Below, one piece after another: positions 57,780 through 64,000 of a stretch of DNA of 64,000 bases; within the stretch, counting starts at the first letter, position 1, and each line of letters starts with the position of its first letter. The notes beneath the pieces were generated by a model. That model saw only the letters and a program-made list of their open reading frames with translations. It ran no database searches and was not told where the DNA came from. Where the stretch lies: assembly GCF_003601925.1 (NCBI RefSeq), contig NZ_QZWH01000022.1, positions 1 to 64,000 on the forward strand. The letters run 5' to 3'. The stretch is from Buttiauxella izardii. Lineage in GTDB: Bacteria > Pseudomonadota > Gammaproteobacteria > Enterobacterales > Enterobacteriaceae. Position numbers and translations under genes: made by a program.

Positions 57780-58562
57780 CTAAACGTCATCCTCGTCCTG
57801 CATAATCGCGCTGCGCCCGCCGTCCATCACGATGGTGGTTCCGGCAATAAAACCGGCTTTATCGCTTGCCAGAAACAGGCACAAATCGCCTACTTCTTCT
57901 GAACGGCCAATACGCCCAACGGGATGTTTTTTGATAGTTTTCTCGCGAGCGATCTTCCCATCGGTATGCGAATCAAACCATGCCTGATTACCATCAGTAT
58001 CAATAAAACCTGGCGCGATACCGACGGTGCGGATTTCCGGCCCCCATTCGATGGTCAGACTTTGCACCAGCGATAGTAACGCTCGCTTGCTGATGTTATA
58101 CGGCGCACAACCCGGCATGGTTGAAAATGCATGATTGGAGGTGATCACCAGGATCGTTCCTTTGTTTTTTTGCAGTGCCGGACGGGCGCATTTCGCCAGA
58201 TACCAGTGGGAGCGCAAATTCAGATCAAAGTTATGCGCCCACTCGCTCTCTTCGCAATCAATGCCTTTAAACACATTTTTGCCCGCGTTGGACACCACCA
58301 CATCGATGCGCCCAAACAGCTTTTCAGCCTCTGCCACGAATTGTTTAATTGATTCGGTTTGGGTGACGTCGACGGAAAAATAGAAATAGCGCTCGGGATA
58401 TTCAGCCAGCATTTTCTGAGCATTTGGCGCATTTTCGAGTGCTGAAAAGGCGCAGCCGATAACAATATCGCCATTCATCAGGAAGGTTTTGGCGATAGCC
58501 TGGCCGATACCCTGACTGGTTCCCGTCACAATAACGACACGAGCAGATTGTTGGGTTTTCAT
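57780..58562 (-). CDS. SDR-family NAD(P)-dependent oxidoreductase
   Basis: Classical short-chain dehydrogenase of 260 aa. Rossmann motif TGTSQGIGQAI (residues 13-23), SNAG (91-94), Asn115, and the catalytic Ser142, Tyr155 and Lys159 (YNISK) are all present, followed by PGFIDTD and a C-terminal FIAGTTIVMDGG. In this operon it could oxidise a sugar to its lactone or a keto-deoxy sugar acid; the substrate is unknown. Start ATG overlaps the aldolase stop by 4 bp (ATGA). Last gene of the leftward operon. Confidence 0.88.
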   Translation of the reverse strand: MKTQQSARVVIVTGTSQGIGQAIAKTFLMNGDIVIGCAFSALENAPNAQKMLAEYPERYFYFSVDVTQTESIKQFVAEAEKLFGRIDVVVSNAGKNVFKGIDCEESEWAHNFDLNLRSHWYLAKCARPALQKNKGTILVITSNHAFSTMPGCAPYNISKRALLSLVQSLTIEWGPEIRTVGIAPGFIDTDGNQAWFDSHTDGKIAREKTIKKHPVGRIGRSEEVGDLCLFLASDKAGFIAGTTIVMDGGRSAIMQDEDDV

Positions 58563-59461
58563 AATAAGTCCCTGATGAAATGATCGATAAGCTGACTATC
58601 CTCTGGCGTCAATTGCCAGCCAGGTTTACGGCAATAATCGGTGGCGATAATTCCACGCCGCATCAAAATCGTTTTCTCAACCTGAATGATGTATTCACAG
58701 TGCGTCATCCAGCGTTGAATATAAGGTAGCAGCGCCTGATGCAATGCCTCGGCCTGCGTGTGCTCACCCTGTTGCCAGTGCTGATAAATCCGCACATACA
58801 CCTCGGTAAACGAGCAACCCGGCATTACGCCTTTGCCTCCCGCCGCCAGCATTTGCAGCATATACAAACCGGCGTAGCCATTGAGCACGCTTGCCTGGGG
58901 CGCGAGTTTCAGAAACTCGCGAGTGTATTCCACAGGGGGATTACACTCGATTTTGAATACCGCATGCGGGTAGCGAGCGGCGACCGCTGCCAACTGTTCC
59001 GGTGAAATCGCCAGACCCGTTTCACCCGGCGCGTATTGCACCATCACCGGAATATCGACCGCTTCCAGTACGGCAAAAATGTGTTCCTGAATGGCCTGTG
59101 GATTAGGGCTAAGGAAAAACGGCGGCAGCAACATCAGCGCATCGGCACCTAATTTTGCGTAATAACGCGCACGTTTCACCGCCAGTTCGGTGCTGTGATC
59201 GGTGACCGACATCGCCCGGTAAAGTGGGCTTCCTGCGAGAGTTGAAACAAACATCTGCGCCAGTCGGTCACGCTCCTGGTCATGCAGTTTCGGGAACTCG
59301 CTGGCGATGCCAAATAGCGTGGTGCCTTGCGCGCCGCTGTTAGACAAGTGTTCCAGCAGGCGCACAAAACTGCGTTCATCCAGTTCACCCGCAGAGGTAA
59401 AAGGCATCGCGGTAATCGGATTCACACCGCCAATATCCTGCGCCGTATAATGCTTGTTCAT
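58559..59461 (-). CDS. DapA/N-acetylneuraminate lyase-family aldolase
   Basis: Class I TIM-barrel lyase of 300 aa. Schiff-base Lys170 (AVFKIECN) and Tyr143 (VQYAPGETGLAIS) are spaced as in DapA. The usual GTTGE loop is GIASEFPKL here, which departs from dihydrodipicolinate synthase and fits aldolases cleaving 2-keto-3-deoxy sugar acids to pyruvate and an aldehyde (YagE/YjhH-like role). True DapA is unlikely given the context. Starts within the dehydratase stop (TAATG). Confidence 0.85.
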   Translation of the reverse strand: MNKHYTAQDIGGVNPITAMPFTSAGELDERSFVRLLEHLSNSGAQGTTLFGIASEFPKLHDQERDRLAQMFVSTLAGSPLYRAMSVTDHSTELAVKRARYYAKLGADALMLLPPFFLSPNPQAIQEHIFAVLEAVDIPVMVQYAPGETGLAISPEQLAAVAARYPHAVFKIECNPPVEYTREFLKLAPQASVLNGYAGLYMLQMLAAGGKGVMPGCSFTEVYVRIYQHWQQGEHTQAEALHQALLPYIQRWMTHCEYIIQVEKTILMRRGIIATDYCRKPGWQLTPEDSQLIDHFIRDLL

Positions 59462-61167
59462 TAATCTTCCTCCCGGTCAGTCAGCACCGCGCCTTGCGCG
59501 GCAGGCAATGCCCAACGGCGATACAAACGCAGGAAACCACGCGGCACTTCTTTGTTCACCGGCTGCCAGTTTTCACGGCGCGTTGCCAGAACGGTTTCCG
59601 CGACATGCAGCGTCAGCGTGCGGGACGGGATATCAATCGAGATTTCATCGCCATTTTCCACTAGCCCAAGCTCTCCGCCATCTACCGCTTCCGGGGAAAT
59701 ATGGCCGACGAACAGCCCGCGGTTGGAACCCGAAAAACGCCCGTCGGTAATCAGTGCGCAGGTATCAGAAAGCCCCATGCCTTCCAGCGATTTCATTGGC
59801 TTATACATTTCCGGCATACCCGGCCCGCCTTTCGGCCCTTCGTAGCGCAGAACCAGCACGCTGCCCGGTTGAATCTGGCCGGACATAATCGCCGCCACAG
59901 ATTCCTGCTCGCTGTTAAACACCACCGCCGGGCCACGGAACACCATCAGGTTTTCCGGCACCGCAGCAGGTTTCACTACGCATCCAAGTGGCGAAAGATT
60001 GCCATGCAACACCGCGACACCCGCTTCATTGCGCACTGGAATTGCCAGCGTATGAATCACTTCCGGGCGACAGCTACGTTTGCCTTTGGCAAGTAATTGA
60101 GCTTTGGTTTTACCGGCAACGGTCAGCGCGTCGAGGTGCATTAATTTGCTGATTTCAACTTCCACCGCCTGCACGCCGCCCGCTTCCCAGAAGTCGATCA
60201 TGTCGTGTTCGGAAGCCGGATACAGCGAGGCGACCAGCGGCACTTTGTGGCTGAGTTCATCAAATGCCGACAGCGGCAAATGGCCGAGTTCGGCTTCGTA
60301 GTAAATCGCCTGGAGATGCAGAATTGCGTTAGTCGAGCCGCCCGTTGCCAGCAGATAAACCATCGCGTTATGAATGGATTCTTTAGTAATAATCTGGCGC
60401 GCATTCACGCCGCTCATAACCAGTTCCACGGCCTGGCGACCGGTTTCTACCGCGCAATCACGGCGCTCTTTTGAAACCGCAGGTAGCGTGCTGCTGCCCG
60501 GCAAACTCATGCCGAGCACCTCACCGATACAGCACATGGTGTTCGCCGTACCGTACATGGTGCAGGAGCCAGGGCCAGGCTCGGCAATATTTTCTATGTG
60601 CGCGAACTCTTCCTCGCTGATTTCACCGCGCATCTTCCAGCCGATGGCTTCGGTCACGATATTGCCATCCCAGTGTTTGCCTTTATATTCCGCGGGATAC
60701 ATCGGCCCGCCGTTGACCATAATCGCTGGGATATCTAAACGCGCTGCTGCCATCAACATCGCCGGAACGATTTTGTCGCACGAACCGAGCAGCACCATGC
60801 CGTCGAAACGGTGGGCGCGCATCATCACTTCGATTGATGCGGTAATCACTTCGCGGGCGGCAAGGATATAGCGCATTCCTAGATGCCCTTCGGCGATGCC
60901 GTCACACGGTGCGATGGTGCCGAACACCATGCCGACGCCGCCTGCTTCGTCGATGCCTTCCAGCACTTTTGCCGTCAGTTCGTTCAGGTTGGCATGCCCC
61001 GCCGTGGCATTGGTGTAACTGTTTACCACCGCAATCACTGGCTTGCGCAGTTGCTCATCGGTATGCCCCATGGATTTATATAGCGCACGTTTCAGTGCGC
61101 CGTCGTCACCTTCGAGGATCGGGTTGAAATGCGTGCCACAGCTGGCACATCCGCCACATCCACTCAT
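59461..61167 (-). CDS. IlvD/Edd-family sugar-acid dehydratase with N-terminal Cys motif
   Basis: Iron-sulfur dehydratase of 568 aa, probably converting an aldonate to 2-keto-3-deoxy-aldonate. Cluster cysteines are Cys88 (IAPCDGIAEGH, as in Edd), Cys130 (GSCDKIVPAML) and Cys202 (PGSCTMYGTAN). The TAGHANL motif is of the IlvD 4Fe-4S type, not the PCN of 2Fe-2S enzymes. ALITDGRFSGSNRG carries the catalytic Ser. The extreme N-terminus has Cys4, Cys7 and Cys10 (GCGGCASCG), unusual for the family. ATG 61167 is favoured over GTG 61173. True IlvD is possible but the operon argues against it. Confidence 0.85.
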   Translation of the reverse strand: MSGCGGCASCGTHFNPILEGDDGALKRALYKSMGHTDEQLRKPVIAVVNSYTNATAGHANLNELTAKVLEGIDEAGGVGMVFGTIAPCDGIAEGHLGMRYILAAREVITASIEVMMRAHRFDGMVLLGSCDKIVPAMLMAAARLDIPAIMVNGGPMYPAEYKGKHWDGNIVTEAIGWKMRGEISEEEFAHIENIAEPGPGSCTMYGTANTMCCIGEVLGMSLPGSSTLPAVSKERRDCAVETGRQAVELVMSGVNARQIITKESIHNAMVYLLATGGSTNAILHLQAIYYEAELGHLPLSAFDELSHKVPLVASLYPASEHDMIDFWEAGGVQAVEVEISKLMHLDALTVAGKTKAQLLAKGKRSCRPEVIHTLAIPVRNEAGVAVLHGNLSPLGCVVKPAAVPENLMVFRGPAVVFNSEQESVAAIMSGQIQPGSVLVLRYEGPKGGPGMPEMYKPMKSLEGMGLSDTCALITDGRFSGSNRGLFVGHISPEAVDGGELGLVENGDEISIDIPSRTLTLHVAETVLATRRENWQPVNKEVPRGFLRLYRRWALPAAQGAVLTDREED

Positions 61168-61190
61168 AATCACAATCTCTTTTTTGTTCG

Positions 61191-62591
61191 TTAACGGCGG
61201 CTAGCCGCATTGATATGATGAGCAGCATCAGGCTGCGCATCGCTGTATTCAGGTTCAACGGTCATTTTTTTAGGGTTTGCCAGGCGTGCGGGCAGGGTGA
61301 GGATCAGCGGCACGCAAAGCAGCAGGAAGCCCGCCAAAATGTACAAACCCACGTCGGTGCGCCCGGTGGTGTCTTTCAGCCAGCCGAGAACCGTTGGGCC
61401 GAAGAAACCGGCCAGGTTGCCGATGGAGTTCACAAACGCGATACCCGCAGCCGCTGCGGTGCCAGAAAGCAATGCGCCGGGCAGGCTGATATAGGTAGGA
61501 ATTAATGCCAACGTGCCGGACATCGCCACGCAAATCCACGCCATCATCCAGAAGGTGGAACCGCTGCAATACGCGCTTAATGTCAGGCCAATACAGCCAA
61601 TTAGCGCCGGAATCGCGATATGCCAACGGCGTTCTTGCTTGAGGTCAGAATGGCGACTGTTCCACACCATAAATGCCGCGCCGAAGACATACGGCAGCGC
61701 TGCCAGCAGGCCGATATAGAAATCGTCGTTAACGCCTGAGCTTTTAATGATCGATGGCAGCCAGAAATTAATGCCGTAGTAGCCGATGTTGAAGCTGAAA
61801 AACACCAGTGCCAGCAGCCAGACGTAGCCGTTTTTCAGCATCCCTTTCAGGCTGCTATCCACTTTGCCTTTATTGGCACGCGCACGGTTGGCGGCATCTT
61901 TTGCCAGGTCGTCGACAACCACCTGTTTTTCGGCATCGGTCAGCCATTTGGCTGATTTCACATCGTTATCGAGATAACGCAGCACCACAAACGCCAGCAC
62001 AAACGAAGGAATCGCTTCGACCAAAAACAGCCACTGCCAGTTATGCAGGCTGCCGACACCTTCAAACATTTTCAGGATCAGGCCGGAAAGTGGGCTGCCG
62101 ATAATCGTCGACAGCGGCGTGACAAGAATAAACAGTCCGAGCGTGCGGGCGGAGCGCCACGACGGGAACCACAGCGTGAGATAAAACACGATGCCAGGGA
62201 AGAAGCCCGCTTCCGCCACGCCGAGTAAAAAGCGTACGACGTAAAATTGGGTCGGCGTGGTCACGAACATCATGCCTGCGGAAAGTACCGCCCAGGTCAC
62301 CATGATTCGGGCAATCCAGAAACGCGGCCCAAACTTCTGCATCAACAAGTTGCTCGGCATCTCAAACAGGAAATAGCCGATGAAGAAAATCCCTGCGCCA
62401 AGGCCGTAAACCGTGTCGCTAAAACTCAGCGCATCCTGCATATGCAGTTTGGCGAACCCCACGTTCACGCGGTCGAGATAGGCAAAGAAGTAACACAGAA
62501 TTAAAAACGGAATCAGTCGCCGGGTAATCTTGCTGTAGACCCGTGATTCAGCGGTGGAATCCGCTGATTTTCTCTCGATTAAGTTACTCAT
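61191..62591 (-). CDS. MFS transporter, anion:cation symporter (ACS) family
   Basis: A 466-aa 12-helix carrier. The N-terminal FAYLDRVNVGFAKLHMQ motif and the EAGFFPGIVFYLTLWFP helix-4/5 segment identify the ACS family (D-galactonate, glucarate, tartrate, phthalate and rhamnonate carriers). Import of a sugar acid with protons is the natural role beside the dehydratase and aldolase. ATG 62591 is 6 nt from GGAG; the ATG two codons earlier abuts it. It ends 23 bp before the dehydratase. Confidence 0.87.
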   Translation of the reverse strand: MSNLIERKSADSTAESRVYSKITRRLIPFLILCYFFAYLDRVNVGFAKLHMQDALSFSDTVYGLGAGIFFIGYFLFEMPSNLLMQKFGPRFWIARIMVTWAVLSAGMMFVTTPTQFYVVRFLLGVAEAGFFPGIVFYLTLWFPSWRSARTLGLFILVTPLSTIIGSPLSGLILKMFEGVGSLHNWQWLFLVEAIPSFVLAFVVLRYLDNDVKSAKWLTDAEKQVVVDDLAKDAANRARANKGKVDSSLKGMLKNGYVWLLALVFFSFNIGYYGINFWLPSIIKSSGVNDDFYIGLLAALPYVFGAAFMVWNSRHSDLKQERRWHIAIPALIGCIGLTLSAYCSGSTFWMMAWICVAMSGTLALIPTYISLPGALLSGTAAAAGIAFVNSIGNLAGFFGPTVLGWLKDTTGRTDVGLYILAGFLLLCVPLILTLPARLANPKKMTVEPEYSDAQPDAAHHINAASRR

Positions 62592-62644
62592 AGTCATCTC
62601 CAGAGGTAGGGGGCCTGAGTTCCAGCCTCAGGCCTGTTGTTGTT

Positions 62645-64000
62645 TTATTCTGTTGTGATGGCCTTACCGGTTTTGCCTTGTGGCGGCTGCCCGATATGGC
62701 GTAGAGGATTGCCGCACATCAAATTGCGTTCGATATGTTCCAGGGAAATGTTTTTAGTCTCAGGGACAAACAGGAGGGTCAGCACAATACAAACCACGTT
62801 CAGCACGCCATAAAGCCAGAACGTGCCGGAGCTGCCGATGGTGTCGATAAGCGTCAGGAACGTCGCGCCAATAATCATATTGGCTATCCAGTTCGCCATA
62901 GTGGAGCAGGTCACGCCAAAATCGCGGCCAGCAAGCGGCTGGATTTCAGAACACAGCACCCAAATCAGCGGGCCTGCGCTCATGGCAAAACCGGTGATGA
63001 AAATCAGCAGCACGATAACGGCGGCGTACTGCTCGGTCGGGTTAGAAATCCCGCTGTGGAACATGTAGCCGAGAATCCCCATGCAAACCGCCATCCCTGA
63101 AAAACCGAGCTTCAGGATAGGTTTACGCCCCCAACGGTCGACGAGTGCAATGGCAATAAACGTCGCCAGCACGTTGGTTAAACCGGCGATCACCGTGCCC
63201 CACATTTGCTCACGGGTGGTGGCGAAACCGGCAATTTCGAAGATCTTCGGCGCGTAGTACATGATCACCGTCATACCGGTGAACTGCTGCATAAACTGGA
63301 GTAACACGCCGAGATAAGTGGAGCGGCGAAAGTGCGCGTTGTGACGAAAAAGCTGCAAACCGCGCTGCTTCATTTTCACGCTTTCGCGGATTTGATTCAG
63401 CTCGTCCTGCGCTTCTTTATCGGAGTTACGCAGCAGTTTCAGCACTTTTCCGGCAAGCTCATGCTTGTCTTTCATTGCCAGCCAGCGCGGGCTTTCCGGG
63501 AGCGTCAGCACGCCGATAAAAAGAACGATGGCTGGGAAGGTAATAACACCGAGCATCCAGCGCCAGTGGCCGCCTTCACTCAGGGCAGTGTCAGATAAAA
63601 ACGCCGCCAGAATCCCGATGGTGATCATCAACTGATAAAGCGAAATCATGCTGCCGCGAATACGCTCTGGCGCGATTTCTGACAGGTACAGCGGGGCAGT
63701 GAAAGAAGCAACGCCGACGGCCAGGCCAAGGATAAAACGTGATACCGCGAGGACTTCCATGCTATGCGCCACGGCGCAGCCGATGGAGCCGATGATAAAC
63801 AGCACCGCTCCCAACAGCAGGCTTTTCTTGCGCCCAAGGCTTGAAGACATGGGGCCGCTGCACAACGCGCCAAGTGCCGCGCCTAACATCATGATGCTGA
63901 CGACAACTTCCTGATGATGGCTACTGAGATTAAATTCATTAGCAATAAAGGGCAGTGCGCCCGCGATGACGCCCATATCCAGGCCAAACAACAGCCCGGC
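62645..64000 (-). CDS. sugar porter (GalP/AraE-like MFS), N-terminus beyond window
   Basis: Sugar:H+ symporter, partial; the frame is open to the right edge ([18 protein letters not shown]) and roughly the first 20-25 residues are missing. Features: [39 protein letters not shown], the [17 protein letters not shown] sugar site, [10 protein letters not shown] and [13 protein letters not shown]. It reads closer to E. coli GalP than AraE. A C-terminal tail past the usual end adds about 12 residues. It is the first visible gene of the operon, 53 bp before the ACS gene. Confidence 0.9.

Follow-up and report, generated by a model that had tools for sequence, protein, structure and literature searches.

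Buttiauxella izardii (genome of 4.77 Mb) carries a nine-gene operon which probably encodes an oxidative pathway of the De Ley-Doudoroff type, under DgoR-type regulation, for galacto-configured sugars and their aldonates, the substrates being read from the gene families present. The window analysed here, bases 1-64000 of the 216,630-base contig C22 (NZ_QZWH01000022.1), ends inside this operon. A first-pass annotation had described five leftward genes at the end of the window: a sugar porter (SP), an ACS transporter, an IlvD/Edd dehydratase (DHT), a DapA-type aldolase (ALD) and an SDR. All five open reading frames (ORFs) were found and their families hold in NCBIfam and Pfam; the gene overlaps, put at 1-4 bp, measure 1 bp for DHT/ALD and 4 bp for ALD/SDR. 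The annotation also saw no kinase or regulator, which is true inside the window and false for the operon, because the window edge had cut it: the kinase DgoK and a GntR-type regulator resembling DgoR are both encoded to the right of the edge, the regulator being found by the rightward extension of the contig that had been proposed.

The strongest part of the case is made by the gene set and a palindrome ahead of it. The 2-keto-3-deoxygalactonate (KDGal) kinase and 2-keto-3-deoxy-6-phosphogalactonate aldolase genes of the De Ley-Doudoroff pathway are both there, scoring over the cut-offs of PF05035 and NF006600 respectively, with 36% (DgoK) and 44% (DgoA) identity to the E. coli proteins. The dehydrogenase and lactonase steps are represented by the SDR and SMP-30 genes through family-level matches, and at the D-galactonate dehydratase step the IlvD/Edd-family DHT sits where DgoD is usual. 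Compared with three E. coli porters, SP is closest to GalP (69% identity), ahead of AraE (58%) and XylE (32%); since the genome has a GalP of its own elsewhere (91% to E. coli GalP), SP represents an additional, dedicated porter. The ACS-type MFS protein, a putative aldonate importer, reaches 317 bits against the D-galactonate transporter model TIGR00893, below its cut-off of 395, and is 24% identical to E. coli DgoT over part of its length. An SDR supplying the oxidation step, as first suggested, is kept as likely on its family match, and the enzyme would be a sugar (galactose-type) 1-dehydrogenase; its best NCBIfam match is an unspecific SDR model and the second a 'glucose 1-dehydrogenase', both below cut-off. 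The initial label of an accessory sugar or sugar-acid operon is borne out by this gene content. The purely non-phosphorylative breakdown proposed with it was dropped after the contig beyond the window revealed DgoK and DgoA, along with the SMP-30 lactonase and the DgoR-like regulator.

In common with the De Ley-Doudoroff pathway the operon has DgoK, DgoA, a GalP-like porter and predicted DgoR-type regulation, together with a putative dehydrogenase, a putative SMP-30-type lactonase and a putative aldonate dehydratase. Halomonas dgo loci are likewise predicted to include a lactonase of COG3386 (DgoL) and a galactose porter under shared regulation (PMC5507952). It differs in having an IlvD/Edd-type dehydratase for the usual DgoD, in an additional AraD-like enzyme, and in its host, a member of the Enterobacterales, whose galactose use is assigned in the same paper to the Leloir route (PMC5507952). 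With E. coli dgoRKADT it has in common a GntR/FadR regulator with the same palindrome form, DgoK, DgoA and an MFS transporter, whereas dgoRKADT is without the sugar porter, SDR, lactonase and DHT-ALD pair, and a separate dgoRKADT-like operon is found in the Buttiauxella genome. The gene set was at first said to match no nameable pathway; a De Ley-Doudoroff pathway with an extra branch fits it. The operon is not categorically new, its unusual parts being the DHT clade and ALD; in the literature, no title or abstract opening was found that describes such an operon. If the assignment is true, some enterobacteria have an oxidative galactose route alongside the Leloir route.

The regulator is 34.5% identical to E. 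coli DgoR, and a DgoR-type palindrome precedes the operon. The E. coli DgoR operator IR1 contains TTGTAGTACAA, which has the same palindrome form, and D-galactonate is the effector of that regulator (PMC12288454). Among related loci, TTGT-N3-ACAA lies 30-46 bases ahead of the DgoK start in 43 of the 44 with a placed start (the exception is L086). A scan of 52 whole loci, the window's own included, found the palindrome TTGTNNNACAA ahead of the first enzyme gene in 45; it stands before a DgoK remnant in L046 and before ACS in L055 and L075. The same scan did not find it in L059, L073, L074, L080, L082, L085 and L086, and none of these seven has a GntR gene of at least 44% identity beside DHT. 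In the Buttiauxella genome the exact TTGTANTACAA occurs four times, twice inside ORFs, and the only two sites outside ORFs are those ahead of dgoR (contig C8) and ahead of the nine-gene operon. We infer that the operon is under DgoR-type control, the direction of regulation included. A CRP-like TTCGA-N6-TCACA element lies upstream; it is exact in eight of ten DgoK-upstream stretches and deviates by one or two letters in the other two, L045 and L062. The operon promoter expected from the rightward extension did not appear: a simple scan of the host locus (L004, 10400-11500) found no consensus promoter and two terminator-like sites (shuffles 1.1). No terminator 3' of SDR was found by simple scan.

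How far is this arrangement conserved? When 295 genomes of the host's family were surveyed with DHT as query (threshold 1e-150), 28 had matches, 25 of them, the host's own among them, at no less than 83% identity and three at 46%. The three belong to one other genus of the family (L033-L035), and in the DHT tree L033 and L035 group with a Lachnospiraceae protein. The nearest named relatives are from Buttiauxella species (95-98%). Fifty-one loci were tabulated, 50 found by scanning named genomes (from Enterobacterales, Vibrionaceae, Colwelliaceae, Silvimonas, Propionivibrio, Anaerobiospirillum and some Bacillota) and one E. coli plasmid copy, with partner genes counted at 44% identity or more and 60% coverage (SMP30 at 28% identity). 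Besides DHT (51), they hold GntR in 44 cases, DgoK in 40, DgoA in 42, ACS in 38, ALD in 45, SP in 19, SDR in 23 and SMP30 in 17. The most frequent set is the core alone, GntR-DgoK-DgoA-ACS-DHT-ALD (14 loci), followed by all nine genes (13), the nine minus SMP30 (5), a Vibrionaceae set without ACS (5) and DHT alone (5). Each of the 45 ALD genes has a DHT in its locus, and six DHT loci have no ALD: L067, which ends inside DHT, and L073, L074, L080, L082 and L085. SP and SDR occur together in 18 loci, SP without SDR in one (L067), and SDR without SP in five, with a remnant of SP in two of these. Because the two genes mostly come and go jointly, the operon appears to be built of an aldonate core to which an entry module for free sugar may or may not be added. 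Of the 51 loci, 13 contain ispH.

Some of these loci have neighbours of their own. The E. coli plasmid NZ_AP022088.1, predicted to be conjugative, carries the core DgoK-DgoA-MFS-DHT-ALD (L036 8832-14607), with a complete dgoRKADT roughly 3 kb away; no other record among E. coli genomes holds most of the query, and in PLSDB it is the sole record at 1e-150. In Propionivibrio (L073, L074) a 69% DHT stands with no operon partner, in L073 behind an alaS-like gene (by eye). Of the loci L079 and L084, the Pseudocolwellia cluster is followed by a polysaccharide lyase family 8 protein and the Colwellia one has a sulfatase, neighbours hinting at a sulfated-polysaccharide diet.

In the route that we propose, the GalP-like porter would import the free sugar, the SDR would oxidise C1 and the SMP-30 lactonase would then open the lactone; alternatively, the aldonate would enter directly via the ACS transporter. 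DHT, a putative aldonate dehydratase, would convert the aldonate to a 2-keto-3-deoxyaldonate, which could leave by two exits. Hexonate products would go through DgoK and DgoA, and products without a 6-hydroxyl (from L-arabinonate or D-fuconate, of the same C2-C4 configuration) would pass to ALD, acting most likely as a dehydratase, for example to alpha-ketoglutarate semialdehyde. The two exits are proposed because of the DgoD-DHT tandem of Vibrionaceae described below, the gene content of locus L182, and a published overlap of arabinose and galactose use: Burkholderia arabinose enzymes convert D-galactose to D-KDGal (PMC11219438), and AraA and AraB are named as galactose enzymes too (PMC6927180). 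Locus L182, of another proteobacterium, holds an L-arabinonate dehydratase (NF009559, 943 bits over 882), an AraD-like gene, DgoK and DgoA, with weaker matches for an aldehyde dehydrogenase (25-28%) and SMP30 (24%); judged from its gene content, it is a candidate joint arabinose/galactose set.

The second exit depends on what ALD does. Searched with phmmer against PDB, ALD finds L-2-keto-3-deoxyarabinonate (L-KDA) dehydratase first (97.6 bits), DHDPS as the next kind (80.4) and YagE at 62. A profile built from 15 aligned ALD sequences, with no E. coli paralogues, ranks 3dz1 (named DHDPS, from Rhodopseudomonas) at 113 bits, L-KDA dehydratase at 110, DHDPS at 100 or less and YagE at 93. The AlphaFold2 model (14-row alignment; predicted local distance difference test score 90.5) has L-KDA dehydratase chains as its best nine Foldseek matches, with template modelling scores of 0.87-0.88, followed by DHDPS at 0.84-0.88; because these ranges overlap, the modelled fold alone cannot settle the class of ALD. 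The active site says more. In the L-KDA dehydratase the aldolase Tyr is replaced by Gln143, Lys171 and Glu173 are part of the signature, and the bases are Glu173, not conserved in other family members, and Glu200 (PMC9795676). All 15 ALD sequences have Gln142, Lys170 and Glu172 unchanged, that is, the Gln for Tyr, the Schiff-base Lys and the Glu two residues on, as in AraD. They do not have the catalytic Tyr above Lys of the Tyr-type DHDPS/NAL enzymes; the four E. coli proteins DapA, NanA, YagE and YjhH all have Tyr at the Gln142 position and no K-x-E. What had been called a 'GIASE-loop aldolase' carries a catalytic signature of the L-KDA dehydratase type. The Glu200 of the Azospirillum enzyme, its C5-proton base, is Ala197 in ALD, and with this residue missing the name L-KDA dehydratase was not adopted.

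Could ALD instead be an aldolase without the Tyr? DHT and ALD would then form a non-phosphorylative exit of the same operon, from 2-keto-3-deoxyaldonates to pyruvate and an aldehyde, as annotated for yjhGH/yagFE on xylonate. Tyr143, invariant in 15 of 15 ALD sequences and adjacent to the usual Tyr position, could stand in for the aldolase Tyr; the missing Glu200 and an operon without an aldehyde dehydrogenase would suit such an enzyme, and a dehydratase-aldolase pair would account for the minimal operons L055 and L075, which have no DgoK or DgoA. As proof that DHT and ALD suffice by themselves, these two were weakened by the DgoK genes that both hosts carry elsewhere. Set against an aldolase are the order of the PDB and profile matches, the nine top fold matches, the Gln and K-x-E that constitute a dehydratase signature (PMC9795676), and the low identity of ALD to YjhH (25%) and YagE (22%). 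We consider the aldolase version rather unlikely; ALD is a putative 2-keto-3-deoxyaldonate dehydratase (or aldolase), the former being somewhat more likely.

Sixteen distant ALD relatives were collected at 1e-30 in 398 genomes. Gln and K-x-E occur in all 16, and the GEE of Glu200 is present in 11 and missing from five, as it is from ALD; since the core is shared throughout, ALD appears to belong to a wider Gln/Glu branch in which, among the members encountered, only AraD has an assigned reaction. Fifteen of the 16 loci were read, with DgoK in three (L181, L182, L183), DgoA in two and an aldehyde dehydrogenase in five, so the linkage of AraD-like genes to DgoK is recurrent, yet in the minority. 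More Gln/K-x-E members of the DHDPS/NAL superfamily without Glu200, some resembling PDB 3dz1, are found in L165, L167 and L175-L177, and in L165 and L167 DgoK and an enolase-superfamily gene adjoin. Tentatively, ALD may represent a new hydro-lyase clade of the DHDPS/NAL superfamily, in which the Gln-Lys-Glu core of AraD is kept, a different base does the work of Glu200, and the substrate is a 2-keto-3-deoxyaldonate that has six carbons or is of the 6-deoxy type; the product of the one dehydratase would then have two exits of different chemistry, with the operon under DgoR-type control. Such an enzyme would allow the conversion of a Schiff-base aldolase fold into a dehydratase to be tested cleanly, since Gln and Glu173 without Glu200 (Azospirillum numbering) separates the two proposed catalytic bases.

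It is useful to set the DHT-ALD pair beside two known systems. The L-arabinose pathway II of the Azospirillum type likewise has a lactonase, an IlvD/Edd dehydratase and an AraD-like DHDPS-family enzyme with Gln/Lys/Glu; the Buttiauxella operon differs in having no aldehyde dehydrogenase, an ALD without Glu200, and a DHT far below the L-arabinonate dehydratase cut-off (397 against 882). E. coli yjhGH/yagEF, annotated as D-xylonate dehydratase and keto-deoxy acid aldolase, also place an IlvD/Edd dehydratase next to a DHDPS-superfamily enzyme; DHT is only 31% identical to YjhG/YagF, and ALD is without the Tyr of their partners.

DHT is 41% identical to E. coli IlvD and 36% to Edd. It joins Edd-like motifs (CDGI, GSCTMYGT) with IlvD-like ones (YEGPKGGPGMPEM, TDGRFSG), which confirms its description as an Edd/IlvD hybrid. 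The first cysteine of the PCN type is absent, and DHT is for this reason probably a 4Fe-4S enzyme. A quick tree (72 of 106 rows, the other 34 having been removed as near-identical; long branches flagged; L067, L081 and L084 gave no full-length DHT ORF and are outside it) places DHT and its relatives in a 27-row clade with a Shimodaira-Hasegawa-like approximate likelihood ratio (SH-aLRT) support of 99, apart from 27 IlvD-type rows (98). The clade is also apart from Edd, YjhG/YagF and a nine-row group with lower-scoring IlvD/Edd homologues, the deeper order being weak. That DHT is a second dihydroxy-acid dehydratase of valine and isoleucine synthesis in a mixed operon is very improbable. It does pass the NCBIfam ilvD equivalog cut-off TIGR00110 by about 20 bits (638.8 against 618.15), and RefSeq labels the plasmid copy ilvD; the same genome's IlvD, however, scores 893 and three DHT relatives 624.8-673.5, GSCTMYGT stands where IlvD has GSCSGMFT, DHT lies outside the proteobacterial IlvD rows, and at least one operon partner accompanies it in 46 of the 51 loci. 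A placement inside the IlvD clade, which would have undone the first reading of DHT, is thus contradicted by the tree and favoured by the cut-off. Automated labels would mislead twice here, as the plasmid copies are called 'dihydroxy-acid dehydratase' and 'dihydrodipicolinate synthase family protein' in RefSeq.

In five Vibrionaceae loci DHT-ALD stands in tandem with a DgoD that is 55-59% identical to the E. coli protein; two of these DgoD were tested, and both pass NF010624. A simple replacement of DgoD by DHT is weakened by this tandem, and DHT-ALD should therefore handle an acid that DgoD does not. The operon might then serve some other hexonate, either one of gluco configuration or a rare epimer, and have recruited DgoK and DgoA for it. 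D-talonate, D-gulonate and D-idonate give the same keto-deoxy acid as galactonate, by their stereochemistry; a dgo operon is already in the genome, and the clostridial L080 has DHT with PfkB-type kinases (by eye). The GalP-like porter, the DgoR-type palindrome and the DgoK and DgoA families all indicate the galacto configuration, and we regard another hexonate as unlikely. Locus L080 (7979-18653) has no ALD; its DHT is accompanied, again by eye, by genes for ABC-type sugar uptake, an SDR, SMP-30, a mutarotase-like protein, a KDPG-type aldolase and two PfkB kinases. The sulfo-Entner-Doudoroff pathway also uses an SDR, a lactonase and an IlvD-type dehydratase; it was set aside, as a 6-hydroxyl is required by DgoK and the operon genes include no other dehydrogenase.

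Several observations weigh against the galacto-type oxidative pathway as a whole, beside Ala197, the invariant Tyr143 and the ilvD score of DHT. The placement of the SDR stops at superfamily level. No aldehyde dehydrogenase for the pentose exit is found in the operon, and 13 Aldedh matches lie elsewhere in the genome. Across the genome the palindrome is no more frequent than its reversed control (four sites against six), 12 of the 15 distant AraD-like loci have no DgoK match, and the hosts of the minimal operons keep their DgoK elsewhere. Finally, because a dgoRKADT-like operon (by ORF order and DgoK match), galK, araB and GalP are all present elsewhere, the operon either repeats or broadens capacity that the genome already has. 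A third dgoK-dgoA pair is found on contig C14 (L088 4022-5474); its neighbours, read by eye as a sodium-solute-type transporter gene and one resembling D-aminoacylase, suggest another source of keto-deoxy acid.

Table 1. Features of the operon and its surroundings on contig C22; the first five lie in the window.
Feature	Position	Strand	Remarks
SDR oxidoreductase, 260 aa	57780..58562	-	last gene of the operon; Pfam PF13561/PF00106
ALD (DapA-type, DHDPS/NAL superfamily), 300 aa	58559..59461	-	Gln142/Lys170/Glu172 signature
DHT (IlvD/Edd-family dehydratase), 570 aa	59461..61173	-	separate clade in tree
ACS-type MFS transporter, 468 aa	61191..62597	-	TIGR00893, below cut-off
SP, GalP-like sugar porter	62645..64000, running past the window edge to 64069	-	GalP identity
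SMP-30 lactonase	64096-64965, beyond window	-	PF08450; PDB 7plb
DgoA-type aldolase	64969-65652, beyond window	-	NF006600, 271 bits vs cut-off 207
DgoK kinase	65613-66575, likely ATG 66515, beyond window	-	PF05035
Palindrome TTGTATTACAA	66540-66550		35 bp ahead of likely DgoK ATG
Weaker palindrome copy TTGTATTACTT			starts 22 bp beyond TTGTATTACAA
CRP-like TTCGA-N6-TCACA	66580-66595		
GntR regulator	66613-67371, beyond window	-	34.5% to DgoR
rihC	67429-68346		divergent from the operon; past the GntR gene

E. coli K-12 has the gene order ispH-rihC-dapB; in Buttiauxella the nine genes lie between ispH and a kept rihC. The operon had been thought to stand in place of rihC and dapB: the insertion after ispH was read correctly, and rihC was not replaced, as it sits beyond the operon. 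To the right of rihC (C22:68412-74304, or L004 12413-18305) there is a further accessory cluster for sugars, with two cupin-like genes, which matched no NCBIfam family, a mannose-family phosphotransferase system (IIA, IIB, IIC, IID) and a ManA-like fusion, all named by eye.

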